Origin: Anaeromyxobacter sp.
Lineage (GTDB): Bacteria > Myxococcota > Myxococcia > Myxococcales > Anaeromyxobacteraceae
Length of the DNA: 45,866 bases
Direction: 5' to 3'
Assembly (NCBI GenBank): GCA_025360965.1
Contig: JANYBC010000164.1
Location: 1-45,866 of the forward strand
Positions 2,999 to 34,551 of the stretch are shown here, piece after piece (the stretch's first letter is position 1; each line of letters begins with the position of its first letter). The position numbers and the translations under genes are program-made. The notes under the pieces were generated by a model that ran no database searches, had not been told where the DNA came from, and was given only the letters and a program-made list of their open reading frames with translations.

Positions 2999-5230
2999 CT
3001 ACTTCGAGAGCTGCTCCTTCAAGAACCCGAGCGACCGCTCCCAGAGCCGCGCCACGTAGGCCGGGTCGCCCGAGGCCTGGGCCAGGTGGGTCATGCCGGG
3101 GAGGGTGAGCAGCTCGAAGCGCTTGCCGGAGCGCAGCAGGGCGTCGGCCAGCTTGAGCGAGTTGAAGTAGTAGACGTTGTCGTCGGCGGTGCCGTGGATG
3201 ATCAGGAGCGGCCGCTCCAGCTTCGGGGCCCAGGTGAGCAGCGAGGAGCGCCGGTAGGCCTCCGGCTGCTCGGCGGGCAAGCCGAGGTAGCGCTCGGTGT
3301 AGGCGGTGTCGTAGTCGCCCCAGTCGACCACCGGGGCCCCGGCCACCGCCGCCTTGAAGAGCTCCGGGTAGCGCATCACCGCCATGGCCGCGAGGTAGCC
3401 GCCGAAGGACCAGCCCTCCACGCCGACGCGGGTCAGGTCGAGCTCGGGGACCATGGCGCCGAGCGCCTTCAGGGCCGCCACCTGGTCCTCGAGCGCCGGC
3501 CCGGCGAAGTCGCCGCGGATGGCCCGCTCCCAGTCGCGCCCGCGCCGGGGAGTGCCGCGGCCGTCGATGGTGACGTGGATGAACCCCTGGTCGGCGATCC
3601 ACTGGGCCAGGTGGTCGGGGCGGGTGCCGACCAGCTGCAGGTGCGGACCGCCGTAGACCGAGAGGTAGACCGGCAGCTTCTGGCCAGGCCTGGCGCTGCG
3701 GGGCCTGATCACCGAGGCGTAGAAGCCCGGGGCCGGCCCGACCTTGTAGAGCTCGGTCCTCGGCTCGAAGGGGGGCCTCTCGGCCACCGAGGGGAGCTCG
3801 GCCAGCCGGCGGCCATCGACCCGGTAGGCGGTCGGGCTCGAGCTGGCGTTCATGGTGGAGCGGGTCACCAGCAGGGCCTCGCCGTTGCGGGAGAGCTGGG
3901 CGCTGGTCGAGACCGGAACCACCGGGGCCAGCCACTCCTCCGGCGCCGCCCCGTCCTTGACCACGTAGAGCCGGGTCTGCGTCGGCTCGGGGCCCCCGGT
4001 GAACCAGAGCCAGCGCCGCTTCTCGTCGTAGCCGACCAGGGCGGCCAGGCCGGCGCTCCCGGTGATCCAGATCGAGGCCTGCGAGCCGTCGGGCCGGTGC
4101 AGCGAGACCTCCGGCCAGCCGCTCCGCTCGGAGAGCCAGAAGAAGCCCGAGCCGTCCTCCTTCCAGCGCGGGTAGCTTTGCACCAGGTTGACCCAGGCCG
4201 CGTCCCTCTCGGTGAGCAGCAGCCGGGTGGCGCCGGTGGCCGGGTCGGCGGTGAGCAGCGCCAGGGCGTCCTGCGTCCGGTTGAGGACCACCAGCGAGAG
4301 CGGCGCCCCCTCGGTCCAGCGCACCGCGCCCAGGTAGGGGTACCGCTCGCGGTCCCAGCTGACCCAGACCGGTGGGCCGCCGGCCACCGGTGAGACCGCC
4401 AGCCGGACCGTGGCGTTGGCCTGGCCGGCGCGCGGGTAGCGGAAGGTGTCGGCCGGGCGCTCGGGGTGGAGCGGATCGTGGATGGTGAACTTCTCCACGG
4501 CGCGCTGGTCGGTCTCCTGCCAGGCCACCAGCCTCGAGTCGGGGGACCACCAGGCGCCGGTGAAGCGCCCCAGCTCCTCCTGGGCGGCGAACTCGGCCTC
4601 ACCGTGCGGGACCTCCTCGGTGCCGCCGCTGGTCAGGGGCCGCTCCAGGTTGCTGGCGAGGTCGAGCAGGCGCAGGTCGTGATCGACCACGTAGGAGAGG
4701 GTCGAGCCGTCGGGCGAGAAGTGCAGGTCGGTGGGGCGCCCGCCCGGCTTGAGCGGGGTGATGGCGCCACTGGCGCGGTCGACCAGGTAGAGCTTGCCCC
4801 CCACCGTCACCGCCAGCCGCCTGCCGTCGCGGGAGAGCTCGAAGGCGGTGATGCCGCGGGTGGTGATCCGCTGCCGCTCCAGCCGCGCCCGCTCGTCGGC
4901 GGTCAGGGCGGCGGCGCCGCCGGCCAGGAGCTGCTCGGCGGTGGCCAGCTCGCGGGTCTCCCCGGTCTTGAGGTCGGTGGCGTAGAGGGCCGAGACCGGC
5001 GAGCGGGGCGGGGAGCGCAGGAAGAGCGCGGCGTCGCCCTCGGGCGTAAGCACCGCGCGCGCGGGTCGGCCTGCGCTGAAGCGGCGGGTCTCGAGGTAGC
5101 GCTTCAGGAACGGCTCGGCCTCGACGGCGGTGGCGGCGGCAGTGGCGGTGGCGGTGGCGGCGCCGGGCGGGGCAGCGGCTGGCGTGGCGGCCGTGGCGGC
5201 GAGGAGGAGGGGGGCGAGCAGGGCGAGCAT
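2999..5230 (-). CDS. S9 family prolyl oligopeptidase (dipeptidyl-peptidase IV type), exported
   Basis: 743-residue secreted serine peptidase. An N-terminal signal peptide (MLALLAPLLLAATAAT) is followed by a beta-propeller region to about residue 480, with WD-like segments such as GWPEVSLHRPDG, and a C-terminal alpha/beta-hydrolase domain. The nucleophile motif GWSFGGYLAAM places Ser at about residue 608. The acid lies in HGTADDNVYY (residues 683-684) and the base in MTHLAQ near residue 715, giving the expected Ser-Asp-His order. Family members remove N-terminal dipeptides, often Xaa-Pro, in the periplasm. The length matches DPP IV-like bacterial enzymes. It is monocistronic, with its own start 26 bp after the preceding minus-strand gene. 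The Ala/Thr-rich stretch after the signal peptide is low complexity. Confidence 0.93.
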   Translation of the reverse strand: MLALLAPLLLAATAATPAAAPPGAATATATAAATAVEAEPFLKRYLETRRFSAGRPARAVLTPEGDAALFLRSPPRSPVSALYATDLKTGETRELATAEQLLAGGAAALTADERARLERQRITTRGITAFELSRDGRRLAVTVGGKLYLVDRASGAITPLKPGGRPTDLHFSPDGSTLSYVVDHDLRLLDLASNLERPLTSGGTEEVPHGEAEFAAQEELGRFTGAWWSPDSRLVAWQETDQRAVEKFTIHDPLHPERPADTFRYPRAGQANATVRLAVSPVAGGPPVWVSWDRERYPYLGAVRWTEGAPLSLVVLNRTQDALALLTADPATGATRLLLTERDAAWVNLVQSYPRWKEDGSGFFWLSERSGWPEVSLHRPDGSQASIWITGSAGLAALVGYDEKRRWLWFTGGPEPTQTRLYVVKDGAAPEEWLAPVVPVSTSAQLSRNGEALLVTRSTMNASSSPTAYRVDGRRLAELPSVAERPPFEPRTELYKVGPAPGFYASVIRPRSARPGQKLPVYLSVYGGPHLQLVGTRPDHLAQWIADQGFIHVTIDGRGTPRRGRDWERAIRGDFAGPALEDQVAALKALGAMVPELDLTRVGVEGWSFGGYLAAMAVMRYPELFKAAVAGAPVVDWGDYDTAYTERYLGLPAEQPEAYRRSSLLTWAPKLERPLLIIHGTADDNVYYFNSLKLADALLRSGKRFELLTLPGMTHLAQASGDPAYVARLWERSLGFLKEQLSK

Positions 5231-28748: not shown

Positions 28749-28821
28749 GGGCGCGTAGCTCAACTGGCAGAGCAATGGACTCTTAATCCATAGGTTGAAG
28801 GTTCGATTCCTTCCGCGCTCA
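28749..28821 (+). tRNA. tRNA-Lys (CTT), integration site
   Basis: Acceptor GGGCGCG/CGCGCTC (one G-T pair), anticodon stem ATGGA/TCCAT around loop CTCTTAA (anticodon CTT) and discriminator A. Its 3' half from the anticodon arm onward is duplicated 2189 bp downstream, marking it as the attachment gene of an integrated element. Confidence 0.92.
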
Positions 28822-28877
28822 CACAAGCAGGACCGAAGAACTCGAGGGCCCCCTGGACAACCAGCGGGGCCCTTCGT
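28778..28877 (+). repeat. Left direct repeat (attL-like), 100 bp
   Basis: Starts at the anticodon arm of tRNA-Lys, covers the T-arm, the 3' end and the downstream hairpin. It is identical to 30967-31066 at 99 of 100 positions (only 28860 differs). Confidence 0.9.
28846..28872 (+). terminator. tRNA-Lys terminator hairpin
   Basis: GGGCCCC-CTGG-ACAA-CCAG-C-GGGGCCC folds into an 11-bp stem with one bulge, 24 nt after the tRNA end, followed by TTCGTTCGTTCTC. The same hairpin (loop ACAT) recurs at 31035-31061. Confidence 0.5.
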
Positions 28878-29024
28878 TCGTTCTCTCCCCACACGAGAAG
28901 AAGGGGGTAGGGGATCTCCTTCGAATCCAGCGGGAAGGACATCTCCAAGGGTCCCTGCAGGCTGTGGCCAGCCACGCGGAACCAAAGGTTCTAGTCATTA
29001 CAGGCATTTATGCCGATCCGCCCT

Positions 29025-29048
29025 GTAAGGTAAAGGAGATTACCTTAC
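29025..29048 (+). promoter_or_regulatory. Perfect inverted repeat with Shine-Dalgarno in the loop
   Basis: GTAAGGTAA-AGGAGA-TTACCTTAC: 9-bp arms and a 6-nt spacer carrying AGGAG, ending 9 nt before the ATPase ATG. It could be a repressor operator or an RNA hairpin presenting or masking the ribosome site. A smaller palindrome GGCAT-TT-ATGCC lies at 29003-29014. Confidence 0.5.
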
Positions 29049-29057
29049 GGTTGCGCC

Positions 29058-30536
29058 ATGCCTTGGGGCTTCTACGGCCGGAACGACGAGCTCAACCGCC
29101 TCCAGGCGATCCTGGCGCGCAACCGTTGGTACTTCGTCAAGGTCACCGGGCGCCGGCGCATCGGCAAGACCGCCCTCATCCAGCGCGCACTCCAGAGCGG
29201 CCAGCGGGTCTTCTACGTCCAGGTCCCCGACTCCGGGCCGGTGGGCGTGCTCTCCGCCGTGGCCGACCAGATGGATACCTTCGAGATCCCGGCCTCCGAC
29301 TTCCCGAGGCCGCGGTCCCTCCCGGAACTGGCGAAGCTCGTCGGCAACCTGGCGCGGGCCGGGTACGCCGTGGCGCTCGACGAGTTCCAGTATTTCAACC
29401 GCGAACGGCTGCGGGACTTCTGCTCCCTCCTCCAGGCCGAGGTGGACCTGCTCTCGGCCCGGGCCTCGCGCGTACCCGGCGGTCTCCTCGTGCTCGGCTC
29501 CATCCACACGGAGATGGCGGCGCTGCTCCAGGAGCGCAACGCTCCCCTCTACAACCGGACGACCGACGAGTTGGAGCTTGGCCACCTCGATGTGGCGTCG
29601 GTGCTCGAGATACTGGATCAGCACGCGACGGTCGAGCCCGAGCGGCTGCTCTTCCTCTGGTCCCTCTTCGAGGGGGTCCCGAAGTTCTACAGGGACTGCT
29701 TCGAGCAGGGCGTGCTGGGCAAGCCGCGTCGCGACCTGCTGGAGAAGGCGTTCTTCGCCTCCTCGTCGCCGCTGCGCACCGAGGCGGACAACTGGTTCCT
29801 CAAGGAGCTGCACGGCAGGTACGACGTCATCCTCAAGTTCGTGGCGCGCAGGCCCGGCTGCACAAATGGCGAACTGCTGGACCACGTCCGGCAGATGAGC
29901 GCGGACACCAAGGAGCAGGTTGGCGGCTACCTGAAGGTCCTCATAGAGAAGTACCGGATCATCGAGAAGCGGCTACCCATCTTCGCCAGGAAGACGCAGC
30001 GGCAAGGGCGCTACTACCTCACCGACAACTTCCTCCGCGCCTGGCTGGCTGCGCTCGCTTCGCCGGTCTCGGCCATGGCGTTCCGGCCGCTGGAACTCGT
30101 CGTGCGCCAGGCCGACGAGCGGCTCGCCGACGTGGAGGGGCCGGCGCTGGAGAAACTGGTGGGCACGCTCTACGAGGAGCGGAGCCGCAAGGGGATCGGC
30201 GACTTCGGCCTCACGGAGCGCGTCCAGGGCTACTGGGACCGCGCCGACACCGAGATCGACCTCGTTGCGGTCGCTGGGGAAGACCACGTCCTGCGGCTGG
30301 TGACCTGCAAGCGGTCGCCCGAGAAGCTGGTGGCCGACCTGCCGCGCTTCGACGGCCACATCACCAGGTTCGTGAGCGCCTCGCCGAAGTTCGGGGGGTG
30401 GAAGATCGAAAAGGTCGCCGTGTCGCCTGTGCTCGATCAGTCGGCCCGCCGGCGCATCGGGGAGCGCGGGTATGTCGCCCAGGACCTGGCCGATCTCACG
30501 GCCGGCCTCCGCGGCCACGGAAGGGGTGCGACGTGA
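29058..30536 (+). CDS. Archaeal-type AAA ATPase with C-terminal DUF234 nuclease-like domain
   Basis: 492-residue cytoplasmic protein. Residues ~1-240 form an ATPase_2-type P-loop domain: FYGRNDELNRLQAIL, TGRRRIGKTALIQRAL (Walker A, Lys37) and AVALDEFQYF (Walker B, sensor region near 115). The middle has a winged-helix-like segment (KFVARRPGCTNGELLDHV to GRYYLTDNFLRAWLAAL). Residues ~330-470 resemble DUF234, a PD-(D/E)xK nuclease fold, with RADTEIDLVAV (Asp401) and LVTCKRS (Lys418). The usual Glu of the ExK pair is Thr here. Such proteins are frequent in thermophilic archaea and scattered in bacteria, and their role is unknown, with mobile or defence functions suspected. It is the only intact gene in the tRNA-Lys element and has its own unusual hairpin leader. 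Confidence 0.85.
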   Translation: MPWGFYGRNDELNRLQAILARNRWYFVKVTGRRRIGKTALIQRALQSGQRVFYVQVPDSGPVGVLSAVADQMDTFEIPASDFPRPRSLPELAKLVGNLARAGYAVALDEFQYFNRERLRDFCSLLQAEVDLLSARASRVPGGLLVLGSIHTEMAALLQERNAPLYNRTTDELELGHLDVASVLEILDQHATVEPERLLFLWSLFEGVPKFYRDCFEQGVLGKPRRDLLEKAFFASSSPLRTEADNWFLKELHGRYDVILKFVARRPGCTNGELLDHVRQMSADTKEQVGGYLKVLIEKYRIIEKRLPIFARKTQRQGRYYLTDNFLRAWLAALASPVSAMAFRPLELVVRQADERLADVEGPALEKLVGTLYEERSRKGIGDFGLTERVQGYWDRADTEIDLVAVAGEDHVLRLVTCKRSPEKLVADLPRFDGHITRFVSASPKFGGWKIEKVAVSPVLDQSARRRIGERGYVAQDLADLTAGLRGHGRGAT

Positions 30537-30754
30537 CCCAAGGATCTTGCCTCGCCTGGCTTGCCCGACGTGGACCGGGCCGATGAGGGCAGTTACTCGT
30601 CGAAGGACAGCGTGCTGAAGACAGCGTGCTGAAGGTCACCAACACCATCAACATGTGGCTCTCGATGAGCTTCGGGATGCTGGGCGGTGCGGACATGAAG
30701 AAGAAGCCGGTGGTCGCCCCCGACCGCTTCACCGCGAGGTGGTCGGCGGATTAG
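30537..30754 (+). pseudogene. Broken ORF with a 14-bp tandem duplication
   Basis: Two in-line coding-like pieces in different frames: ADEGSYSSKDSVLK up to 30620, then VTNTINMWLSMSFGMLGGAD and KKKPVVAPDRFTARWSAD ending at TAG 30752-30754. They are joined where ACAGCGTGCTGAAG is repeated twice in tandem (30607-30634), shifting the frame. Deleting one copy restores a continuous C-terminal fragment. I do not recognise the family. It lies directly after the ATPase gene, whose stop overlaps a possible GTG start. Confidence 0.45.
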
Positions 30755-30785
30755 GGTGGTTGGCGGCAACTTCACGGAGGAGTGA

Positions 30786-30968
30786 CCAGGTAAGGGCCAG
30801 TTCGGCAAGGTCGCTGCTCGAGCGACCGAGCTCATGGCCGCAGGCAAGTGCGGAGCAGCGACTGAAGCTTGGAAGGTTGCGGTGAAGAGCGAGTTCCCAG
30901 GGAAGACGGCCGCCCAGAAGAAGTCATCGCTACGGGACGACGTTGAAGTCCCAGCTGGCCTGGCCTGA
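30786..30968 (+). pseudogene. Startless small ORF ending at the right repeat
   Basis: An open frame without a start codon reads GQFGKVAARATELMAAGKCG, then AATEAWKVAVKSEFPGKTAA, and ends in QKKSSLRDDVEVPAGLA with its TGA formed at the repeat boundary. The AW-x2-A-x4-FP-x3-A-xKK pattern resembles small DUF6979-like proteins truncated by the att sequence, a weak guess. A GTG with a nearby GGAGG (30782) is in another frame, suggesting a one-base indel at the N-terminus. Confidence 0.4.
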
Positions 30969-31010
30969 CTCTTAATCCATAGGTTGAAGGTTCGATTCCT
31001 TCCGCGCTCA
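30967..31010 (+). pseudogene. tRNA-Lys 3'-half remnant (attR side)
   Basis: 44 nt identical to tRNA-Lys from the anticodon arm to the discriminator base. It has no 5' half, so it cannot be a functional tRNA. Confidence 0.85.
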
Positions 31011-31066
31011 CACAAGCAGGACCGAAGAACTCGAGGGCCCCCTGGACATCCAGCGGGGCCCTTCGT
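30967..31066 (+). repeat. Right direct repeat (attR-like), 100 bp
   Basis: Second copy of 28778-28877, including the terminator hairpin at 31035-31061. Identity decays beyond 31066, defining the edge. Confidence 0.9.
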
Positions 31067-31110
31067 GCGTCCTCCCCCAGGAGGCCCTCCAGCGACATAG
31101 GCGCGGCATG

Positions 31111-32271: not shown

Positions 32272-33568
32272 ATGCTCATCGAGCTGGCCATCATCCTCGT
32301 GCTCATCGCCCTGAACGGCGTCTTCGCAGGCGCGGAGATATCGATCATCTCCATCCGGCGCAGCCGCCTCCAGCAGCTCGTCGAGGAGGGGCGGGTCGGG
32401 GCTCGGGCGGTCCAGGCGCTGCGAGACGTTCCGGAGCGGTTCCTCGCGACGGTCCAGGTGGGCATCACCGTGGTCGGCGCGACGGCGGCAGCCTTCAGCG
32501 GCGCCTCCATTGCTACCCGCCTGGCACACGTCCTCGAGGGCTTCGGATGGGGTGCCGAGACCGCAGAGGAAGTGGCCCTGGCCATCGTCATCGCCGGCGT
32601 GTCCTACCTCTCCCTCATCTTCGGGGAGCTGGTGCCGAAGTCGCTCGCTGCGCGCCGGGGAGGCCTATGCGCTCCTGGTGGCGCGGCCGCTCCAGGCGCT
32701 CGCCTGGTTCGGGCGCCCGCTGGTCTGGGTCCTCACGGCCAGCTCCAACGTCGTGCTGAAGCCCTTCGGGGACGCCACCTCGTTCACCGAGGCGCGTCAC
32801 TCGACGGAGGAGTTGCAGCAGCTGGTGGAGGAGGCCGCGCAGGCGGGCTCGCTCGACGCCAAAAGCAGCGAGATCGCGGCACGGGCGCTCGACTTCGGCG
32901 ATCTCTCGGCCGCCGCGGTGATGGTGCCGCGCAACCGCATCGTCGCGGTCCCGCGCAACGCGAACCAGGCCGAGCTGCGCCAGATCGTGCTCGGGGCGCA
33001 CTTCTCGCGGATGCCCGTCTACGAGGGGACGCTCGACAACGTGGTCGGCTACATCACGATGCGCGACGTCCTGGCGGTGGCGTGGGAGAGGGAGGAGGTC
33101 GTGCTGGCGGACATCCTGCGGCCGGCGTTCTTCGTCCCCGAGTCCTCCAGCGCCGGGAAGGTGCTGCAGGAGATGCAGCGGCGGCGAGTCCCCTTGGCCA
33201 TCGTCGTGGATGAGCATGGTGGCGTGGCCGGGCTCATCACGCTGGAAGACCTCGTCGAGGAGCTGCTGGGAGACCTGGCGAGCGAGGACGAGCGCTCCGA
33301 CAGCCCGGTGCGGGTCGAGCCCGATGGGAGCGCGCTGGTCAGGGGCGCCATGGCCATCCGCGACGTCAACCGCGAACTCGGAATCGAGCTCCCCGAGGGA
33401 GACGGGTGGACCACCATCGGTGGGCTGTGCGTCGCCCTCGCCGGTGGCATCCCGCAGGCGGGCACTCGACTTCAGTCGGGCGACCAGACCCTGGAGGTCG
33501 TCGAGGCGAGCGCGCGAGCCGTCGGCCTGGTGCGCGTCAGGCACCGGGCGCCAGTCGCTCCCGTGTGA
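32272..33568 (+). pseudogene. CNNM/CorC (DUF21-CBS) family protein, frameshifted
   Basis: The gene reads as a hemolysin-like CNNM transporter in two frames. Frame one (32272 to ~32660) gives MLIELAIILVLIALNGVFAG, VGITVVGATAAAFSGASI and LIFGELVPKSLAARRG. Frame two continues GEAYALLVARPLQALAWFGR, two CBS domains (AAAVMVPRNRIVAVPRNANQ; IVVDEHGGVAGLITLEDLVE) and a CorC_HlyC domain ending at 33568. The shift is at a GGGG run (32657-32660). One G fewer gives an unbroken protein of about 431 residues. Everything else is well preserved, so the break is recent or a sequencing error. CNNM proteins export Mg/Co or bind AMP. Confidence 0.8.
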
Positions 33569-33613
33569 GCACACTGTTGCCGGTCGCCGGAGTCCTCACC
33601 AGGCAGGTCGACG

Positions 33614-33712
33614 CTCATCCTCTGGACCGGGGTGGAGAGCGCTGACATCGTGCTGATGGGGAGCGACCTCCTGAAGCTCGTCGAGACGGTGCGGGTCGCC
33701 AACAGAATACCG
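33614..33712 (+). pseudogene. C-terminal fragment of a heavy-metal P-type ATPase
   Basis: An in-frame stretch reads TGVESADIVLMGSDLLKLVE then TVRVANRI, matching the hinge after the GDGxND loop of P1B ATPases (ADIVLM-SDLLKLV). The catalytic loop, membrane helices and start are missing. It is a short relic. Confidence 0.6.
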
Positions 33713-33737
33713 AGTGCGCCTCGGTCTTTCCCCGTGC

Positions 33738-33743
33738 TACCAC
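33738..33743 (+). promoter_or_regulatory. -10-like TACCAC before the BlaI-type gene
   Basis: TACCAC ends 8 nt before the ATG at 33752. It is a weaker match than the others but has the same leaderless spacing. Confidence 0.25.
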
Positions 33744-33751
33744 CTGCCACC

Positions 33752-34156
33752 ATGACCCCGCAGCGCTCTCTCTTCCTCGGTGACCTGGAGCAGGCCGTGA
33801 TGGCCCGCCTCTGGTCGAGTGGTCCGCAGGACGTGAAGGCGTGCCACCTGGCCATCGGGAGGAGCCGGCGAATCACCCACAACACGGTCCAGTCCACGAT
33901 GGAGCGGCTCTTCCGCAAAGGGCTGCTGCGCAGGGACAAGGTGAGCCACGCCTTCGTCTACTCGGCCATCCTCTCGCGCGAAGAGTACGGCGCCCAGCTG
34001 GCCCGCGACGGGGTCGCCGCTGCCGTGGGGAGCGCGGCGCCCGGTTCCCTGCTGGCGGCGTTCGTGGATCTGGCCGAGCGCATTGGCGACGAGGGCCTGA
34101 GCCGGCTCGAGCAGCTCATCGCCGCCCGCCGCGCGGCAGCCAGGGAGCGCCCGTGA
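33752..34156 (+). CDS. BlaI/CopY-family winged-helix repressor
   Basis: 134-residue DNA-binding protein. [20 protein letters not shown], then [20 protein letters not shown] (recognition helix and wing) and [20 protein letters not shown] match the penicillinase-repressor family. The C-terminal half forms the dimer helices ([20 protein letters not shown]). Members repress beta-lactam or copper genes and are released by cleavage by an M56 membrane protease. The partner M56 gene begins at the overlapping GTGA, but is broken. The repressor itself looks intact, so the regulatory pair is probably not inducible by that route. Confidence 0.88.
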
Positions 34157-34551
34157 GCCCCCTGCTCCGGCTCGGCTTCCTGTCGGCCACCACGGTGGTC
34201 CTGTGTGGTGGCGCGGTGGCCCTGCTGGCCTCCCTCGCCTACCCGAGGGTCCGGGCACACCTGGTGGCGCTGCCGCCCGAAGCCCGCGCCCGCTCGCCAC
34301 CCGGTGGCATGGCTGGAGTGGGTGCTCCTCGCCGCAGCGGCACTTGGTGTCGGCGTCGTGGCGCTTCGTATCCTTCGGGCTCAGTTCGCCACCTGCGCGC
34401 CGTCTCGGCGCTGCTGAGGATCGCTGGCCAGGGGGTCCACGAGGGCGGGCCAGTGGCGTCGACCGAGCCGCTCTCCGTCACGGCCGGCCTGCTCTGGCCG
34501 CTGGTGCTGGTGTCCGCGGAGCCCTGGAGCGGCTCTCTCCCATCCTCATGA
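34153..34551 (+). pseudogene. Truncated M56 (BlaR1-like) sensor protease remnant
   Basis: Starts with GTG overlapping the BlaI stop. The first ~45 residues ([40 protein letters not shown]) look like the N-terminal helix and linker of M56 peptidases. The frame then turns into Arg/Pro/Gly noise with no HExxH zinc site. Another frame near 34310-34380 encodes a lone hydrophobic helix ([19 protein letters not shown]). A rearranged remnant. Confidence 0.5.

Follow-up and report, generated by a model that had tools for sequence, protein, structure and literature searches.

Background

How single defence genes move without integrases or transposases remains a largely open question, and the locus described here raises it directly. 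In the window (the whole stretch of DNA that was analysed, i.e., 45,866 nucleotides of contig JANYBC010000164.1 from an Anaeromyxobacter sp.), the gene of a candidate phage-defence protein, PDC-S27, lies between two nearly identical copies of the 3′ half of a tRNA-Lys gene. Was it brought there by an element that integrates at the tRNA, as an earlier note made from the sequence alone had proposed, or did it arrive by another route? Our results suggest that PDC-S27 probably moves as a lone gene, with an insertion that duplicates a long stretch of its target, rather than within an integrase-driven tRNA element.

The repeat pair at the tRNA-Lys gene

The features of the locus are as follows.

28749..28822, + strand: intact tRNA-Lys, anticodon CTT (ARAGORN), the last of a Pro-His-Arg-Lys tRNA cluster 3′ of rdgB
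28778..28889, + strand: repeat copy T1, tRNA-Lys 3′ half and terminator (direct-repeat search); single copy in family relatives
28890..28992, no strand: left spacer, without similarity to other PDC-S27 loci among the blastn matches listed
28993..30539, + strand: conserved unit of leader, palindrome and gene to about the stop codon (blastn limits: left 28993, 28994 or 29014; right 30499 or 30539)
29025..29048, + strand: palindrome GTAAGGTAA-AGGAGA-TTACCTTAC with a central Shine-Dalgarno-like AGGAGA, a probable operator (survey of upstream regions, 57 loci)
29058..30536, + strand: PDC-S27 candidate phage-defence protein, 492 aa (PADLOC PDLC04985; AlphaFold; Foldseek)
30605..30632, + strand: 14-bp tandem duplication (acagcgtgctgaag twice), approximate place, in the broken stretch (sequence reading)
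30789..30965, + strand: DUF6979 gene fragment, profile positions 3–46 of 127, ending at T2 (Pfam PF22399, E 6.5e-6; 26.7 bits, just under the cut-off of 27)
30967..31078, + strand: repeat copy T2, remnant of tRNA-Lys 3′ half and terminator (direct-repeat search; no tRNA by ARAGORN)

The direct-repeat search paired 28778–28889 with 30967–31078 over 112 nt at 96% identity, with a start-to-start spacing of 2189. Within this pair, 28778–28877 and 30967–31066 are equal at 99 of 100 bases, the sole difference being ggacaacc in the first copy against ggacatcc in the second, so that the match described in the earlier note was confirmed both on the sequence and by the repeat search. The repeat starts at nucleotide 30 of tRNA-Lys, in the anticodon stem, and extends across the tRNA 3′ end and the terminator. 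Indeed, ARAGORN finds a tRNA at the first copy and none at the second, in agreement with the earlier view that the first copy completes a whole tRNA and the second is a remnant. The pair is far longer than the next-longest one in the surrounding 8 kb (42 nt at 71%), and T2 is the only other strong match to T1 in its own genome (3.83 Mb, 259 contigs), where neither a third strong copy of the repeat nor a second copy of the element was found.

A misjoin of the contig at the 100-bp repeat has to be considered for such a structure, as the assembly is fragmented and the repeat is about as long as a typical assembly k-mer. We regard this artefact, which the earlier note had named as a possible refutation of its own reading, as very improbable, because unique flanks stand on both sides within one contig, a third repeat copy is missing from the genome, and the same architecture recurs in independent genomes with clearly diverged repeats (79–98%), which are not simple assembly errors.

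Comparison within the family, which the earlier note had suggested as a check, agrees with an insertion. A match to tRNA-Lys was present in 22 of the 24 family genomes searched (own genome included), and its 3′ half was duplicated only in the own genome; the empty site of the relatives is thus a single 3′ half, as judged by repeat copy number. The upstream genes (AIR-synthase-like, amidase, rph and rdgB) and the tRNA cluster are conserved across the family, and the side downstream of tRNA-Lys is not. At 99% identity, the window repeats point either to a recent event or to gene conversion of T1 and T2, and the recent insertion put forward earlier is probable. The earlier note had also counted relatives sharing the ATPase gene at the same place without repeats as evidence against itself, and one such case was half found: genome G023, of the same genus, keeps a 114-bp remnant of the ATPase 3′ end, 1.1 kb 3′ of tRNA-Lys, with no second tRNA repeat. 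This remnant is 86.8% identical to the window and 82.5% to G023's own copy at an ABC-F gene, suggesting that the tRNA-Lys site held a PDC-S27 gene more than once or for long. At this G023 site (L097:6700–7600), a gene pair on the − strand between tRNA-Lys and the remnant reads as an HTH antitoxin and a HigB/RelE-like toxin, and a restriction-enzyme-like fragment lies 3′ of the remnant.

Contents of the insert

As the earlier note described, the cargo between the repeats consists of one intact ATPase gene (29058–30536) followed by a stretch with broken reading frames, and a search for an integrase or transposase gene within the insert found none. Nor do the 25 longest inverted-repeat pairs include one that connects the two ends of the insert, as terminal inverted repeats would. 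The insert is not a bare gene, for it holds ~430 bp extra that include the truncated DUF6979 gene; when compared by blastn with PDC-S27 loci, neither the left spacer nor these right-hand 430 bp had a relative among the matches listed. Farther downstream (32272–34551) lie a CNNM-domain (hemolysin-like) gene and, after it, overlapping ORFs that have no Pfam match and may represent a frameshifted neighbour.

The product of the intact gene matches the PADLOC PDC-S27 model over residues 2–483 (E 2.8e-209), i.e., nearly the full length of the family profile. It is a candidate single-gene phage-defence protein by database prediction, with an AAA+ ATPase, a winged helix and a PD-(D/E)XK-like C-terminus. 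Its AlphaFold model is of good quality (pLDDT 88.8) and has the Pyrococcus ATPase 2qen as best Foldseek match (E 1.1e-9), the predicted fold being similar to that of ORC/Cdc6-type and STAND-type AAA+ ATPases; a search of solved structures by sequence matched designed repeat proteins alone. The C-terminus looks like a PD-(D/E)XK nuclease whose motif has changed to (T/S)CK. Carrier genomes have, as a rule, one full copy of the gene. Its occurrence is patchy: it was present in 8 of 195 Myxococcota genomes and in 8 of the 392 from the phylum of a Planctomycetes strain. Four relatives were found on plasmids and none on phages. The distribution and evolution of PDC-S27 are the subject of PMC12988326, and our literature search found no record of its repeat-bracketed context.

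Repeats around PDC-S27 at other loci

Long direct repeats bracket the gene not only in the window but also in about a quarter of its relatives. In a strict test, in which a repeat had to measure 45 bp or more and lie no farther than 600 bp from the start and stop, 14 of 54 PDC-S27 loci were bracketed compared to 0 of 122 neighbouring genes used as control (p = 1.8e-8), with repeats of 57–747 bp (median 103 bp) and a median insert of 1730 bp. A looser test gave 16 of 63 PDC-S27 loci, against 2 of 26 in the sister clade, 0 of 26 DUF4143 ATPases, 1 of 26 PDC-S01 genes and 1 of 93 neighbours (pooled p 3e-7). Nine further PDC-S27 loci, some of which overlap the first set, included no bracketed one. 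Overall, ~ three quarters of the loci show no repeat, and these may be old, decayed or inserted otherwise. The positives with a named record all come from metagenome-assembled genomes, among them Myxococcota, Planctomycetota, Bacteroidetes, Elusimicrobia and Proteobacteria.

The positives are not of equal value. In six of the 14 (L004, L024, L027, L032, L048 and L056) the repeat is present at least three times in its own locus, and dispersed repeats may thus explain these six. L004, which comes from genome G016, was discarded as a clean case, its repeats being dispersed in a defence/toxin-antitoxin island. Clean two-copy cases are the window, L005, L009, L015, L047 and L050, and L003 is a tandem case. 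The G016 island itself (contig C161, locus L230, 1–10800) has ~110-bp dispersed repeats with the palindrome GTCCTACCGGTAGGAC between its genes, which include the PDC-S27 gene and a DUF4143-type ATPase.

What is repeated is sequence of the locus, not of the element. Apart from one 17-nt match, the repeats are unrelated between loci, each having the sequence of its own target. As examples, the repeats around the gene in G023 (L005) are 103-bp copies of an ABC-F gene 3′ end, and those in G015 (L003) come from the 3′ end of a gene whose translation reads as homogentisate dioxygenase; here there is also a third copy, and behind it a second island. At L047 the repeat is a whole methyltransferase gene. 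At L044 and L048 the repeats lie directly 3′ of the upstream stop codon, and other repeats are intergenic DNA. The ABC-F gene end is present throughout the family and duplicated solely in G023. The second island (L003:2151–4499 and L011/L231) is flanked by a further two copies of the homogentisate dioxygenase gene end. It appears to encode a HigB-like toxin and an HTH/ImmA-like protein and is ~99% identical between G015 and G017. In the own genome of the window, a PDC-S01 ATPase gene (contig C208 of G000, locus L244) stands between 396-bp copies (752–1147 and 3461–3856, 88%) that read as a VapC-type toxin gene region, perhaps from the same kind of insertion.

These observations bear on the reading of a tRNA-Lys integrative element, in which a tyrosine integrase would have joined an attP to an attB in the anticodon arm, its gene would have been lost or would act from elsewhere, and the ATPase would be mere cargo. 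Integrases that target the anticodon loop produce a repeat running from the anticodon arm and restore the tRNA, and this arm is a classic integrase position. The window repeat begins in that arm and leaves a whole tRNA, and the broken genes at the right end of the insert would suit a decayed element. However, the same gene, at ~84% DNA identity, is found between unrelated repeats at protein genes, and thus its relatives share no att site (tRNA-Lys, ABC-F, homogentisate dioxygenase and the other repeats being unrelated), and a second att-like copy occurs in no other family genome. Nor was a site-specific integrase found in or near the element: with our small home-made profile, which makes for an insensitive search, none of 19 tRNA-Lys loci of the family showed an integrase-like ORF, and the PDC-S27 loci showed one clear integrase (L025) and one marginal (L014). 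Where the tRNA beside an integrase of the own genome could be identified, it was tRNA-Gly(GCC), tRNA-Gly(CCC) or tRNA-Arg(CCG), and never tRNA-Lys, beside another copy of which the earlier note had advised looking. We therefore judge a decayed or trans-mobilised tRNA-Lys element to be rather unlikely. What stands of the earlier proposal is an accessory-gene insertion with a duplicated tRNA 3′ half; an element with a tRNA att site that is served by an integrase in trans is not supported.

The conserved unit and its upstream palindrome

The limits of the shared unit agree with those of the gene. For the copies at ~84% DNA identity (window, G015 and G023), blastn similarity runs from ~65 bp 5′ of the start codon to the stop codon or slightly short of it, and the G016 copy, also at ~84%, has similar limits. 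In the pair L015/L016, the unit begins 127 bp upstream, continues for ~15 bp beyond the stop codon and is 95% identical within flanks that are 78–83% identical, and at L009 the second repeat begins 2 bp past the stop codon. An older PDC-S27 leader remnant with palindromes (78% to L016) was noticed 3′ of the second repeat of L015 (5142–5231), as if displaced by the new copy.

Of 57 upstream regions, 32 have a palindrome 5′ of the start codon (3.2 expected), and it is conserved in several phyla. Its mismatches are more often A.C (10) than G.T (4). This speaks for a DNA site and against an RNA hairpin, a reading that was rejected on this ground, and 29025–29048 is probably a DNA operator, as predicted from its sequence.

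Origin of the repeats

We consider it likely that a lone PDC-S27 gene with its leader and operator (~1.55 kb) was inserted 3′ of tRNA-Lys in an event that duplicated ~100 bp of resident sequence. The gene would have entered directly 3′ of the tRNA, one copy of the duplicated resident DNA still completing the tRNA and its terminator and the other remaining as a scar on the far side. The copies would have arisen at the insertion itself, e.g., through template switching or the capture of a linear fragment at nicks set far apart, and later recombination between them could delete the gene cleanly. One site in the window and two in L005 are informative as to direction; at these, the gene-attached copy is ancestral and the scar copy derived, which fits a duplication of resident DNA; this direction has small weight, because a working gene is held constant by selection.

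Homologous recombination offers another way to two copies. In this case, an incoming circle or fragment from another strain would carry PDC-S27 beside a homologous gene end, and one crossover (or one crossover and one illegitimate join) would leave the donor and the resident repeats. Repeat pairs indeed differ by 1–21%, as donor and resident would, G015 and G017 share nearly the same island and inner repeat but diverge more in the gene-attached copies, and the L015/L016 unit is far closer than its flanks. However, such exchange accounts for spread at one locus and not for the same gene beside many different gene ends, and the informative sites, one or two at each locus, also count against it, as they make the gene-attached copy ancestral, so that we hold it unlikely.

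The sole intact gene of the insert encodes an AAA+ ATPase with a nuclease-like end, in which the (D/E)xK motif position reads T-C-K or S-C-K. Conceivably, PDC-S27 drives its own insertion, its AAA+ and PD-(D/E)XK-like domains making nicks far apart at gene 3′ ends; it would then be both a defence gene and a mobile element, a one-gene element with target duplications of 60–750 bp and no terminal repeats. We regard this idea as doubtful.

Comparison with known systems

PDC-S27 resembles tRNA-integrated genomic islands and integrative mobilisable elements in that a tRNA 3′ half is duplicated and the tRNA is whole, and it differs from them in that the unit has no integrase and its insertions share no attachment site. 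The case also warns against taking a long tRNA repeat on either side of a gene as proof of an integrase-type island. The architecture agrees with insertion with long target duplication, which was put forward for the restriction-modification genes of Helicobacter pylori (Nobusato et al. 2000, Gene 259:99-108; via PMC1643837, PMC3031569 and PMC4978471). As these later papers present them, such insertions likewise place an accessory gene unit between long, variable direct target repeats. The features expected of this architecture were found here: bracketing is above chance (14/54 vs 0/122), the repeat sequence is specific for the target, and the repeated segment is single in relatives for both the tRNA-Lys 3′ half and the ABC-F gene end, as judged by repeat copy number. 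In contrast to the Helicobacter restriction-modification genes, as described in those sources, the unit here is a single AAA+ ATPase/nuclease-like defence candidate that occurs in several phyla. The long-target-duplication architecture thus appears, from the sequences compared, to extend to a single candidate defence gene across phyla, and PDC-S27 insertions in different phyla, in which the duplicated target can be read, make this route testable outside the restriction-modification genes of Helicobacter.
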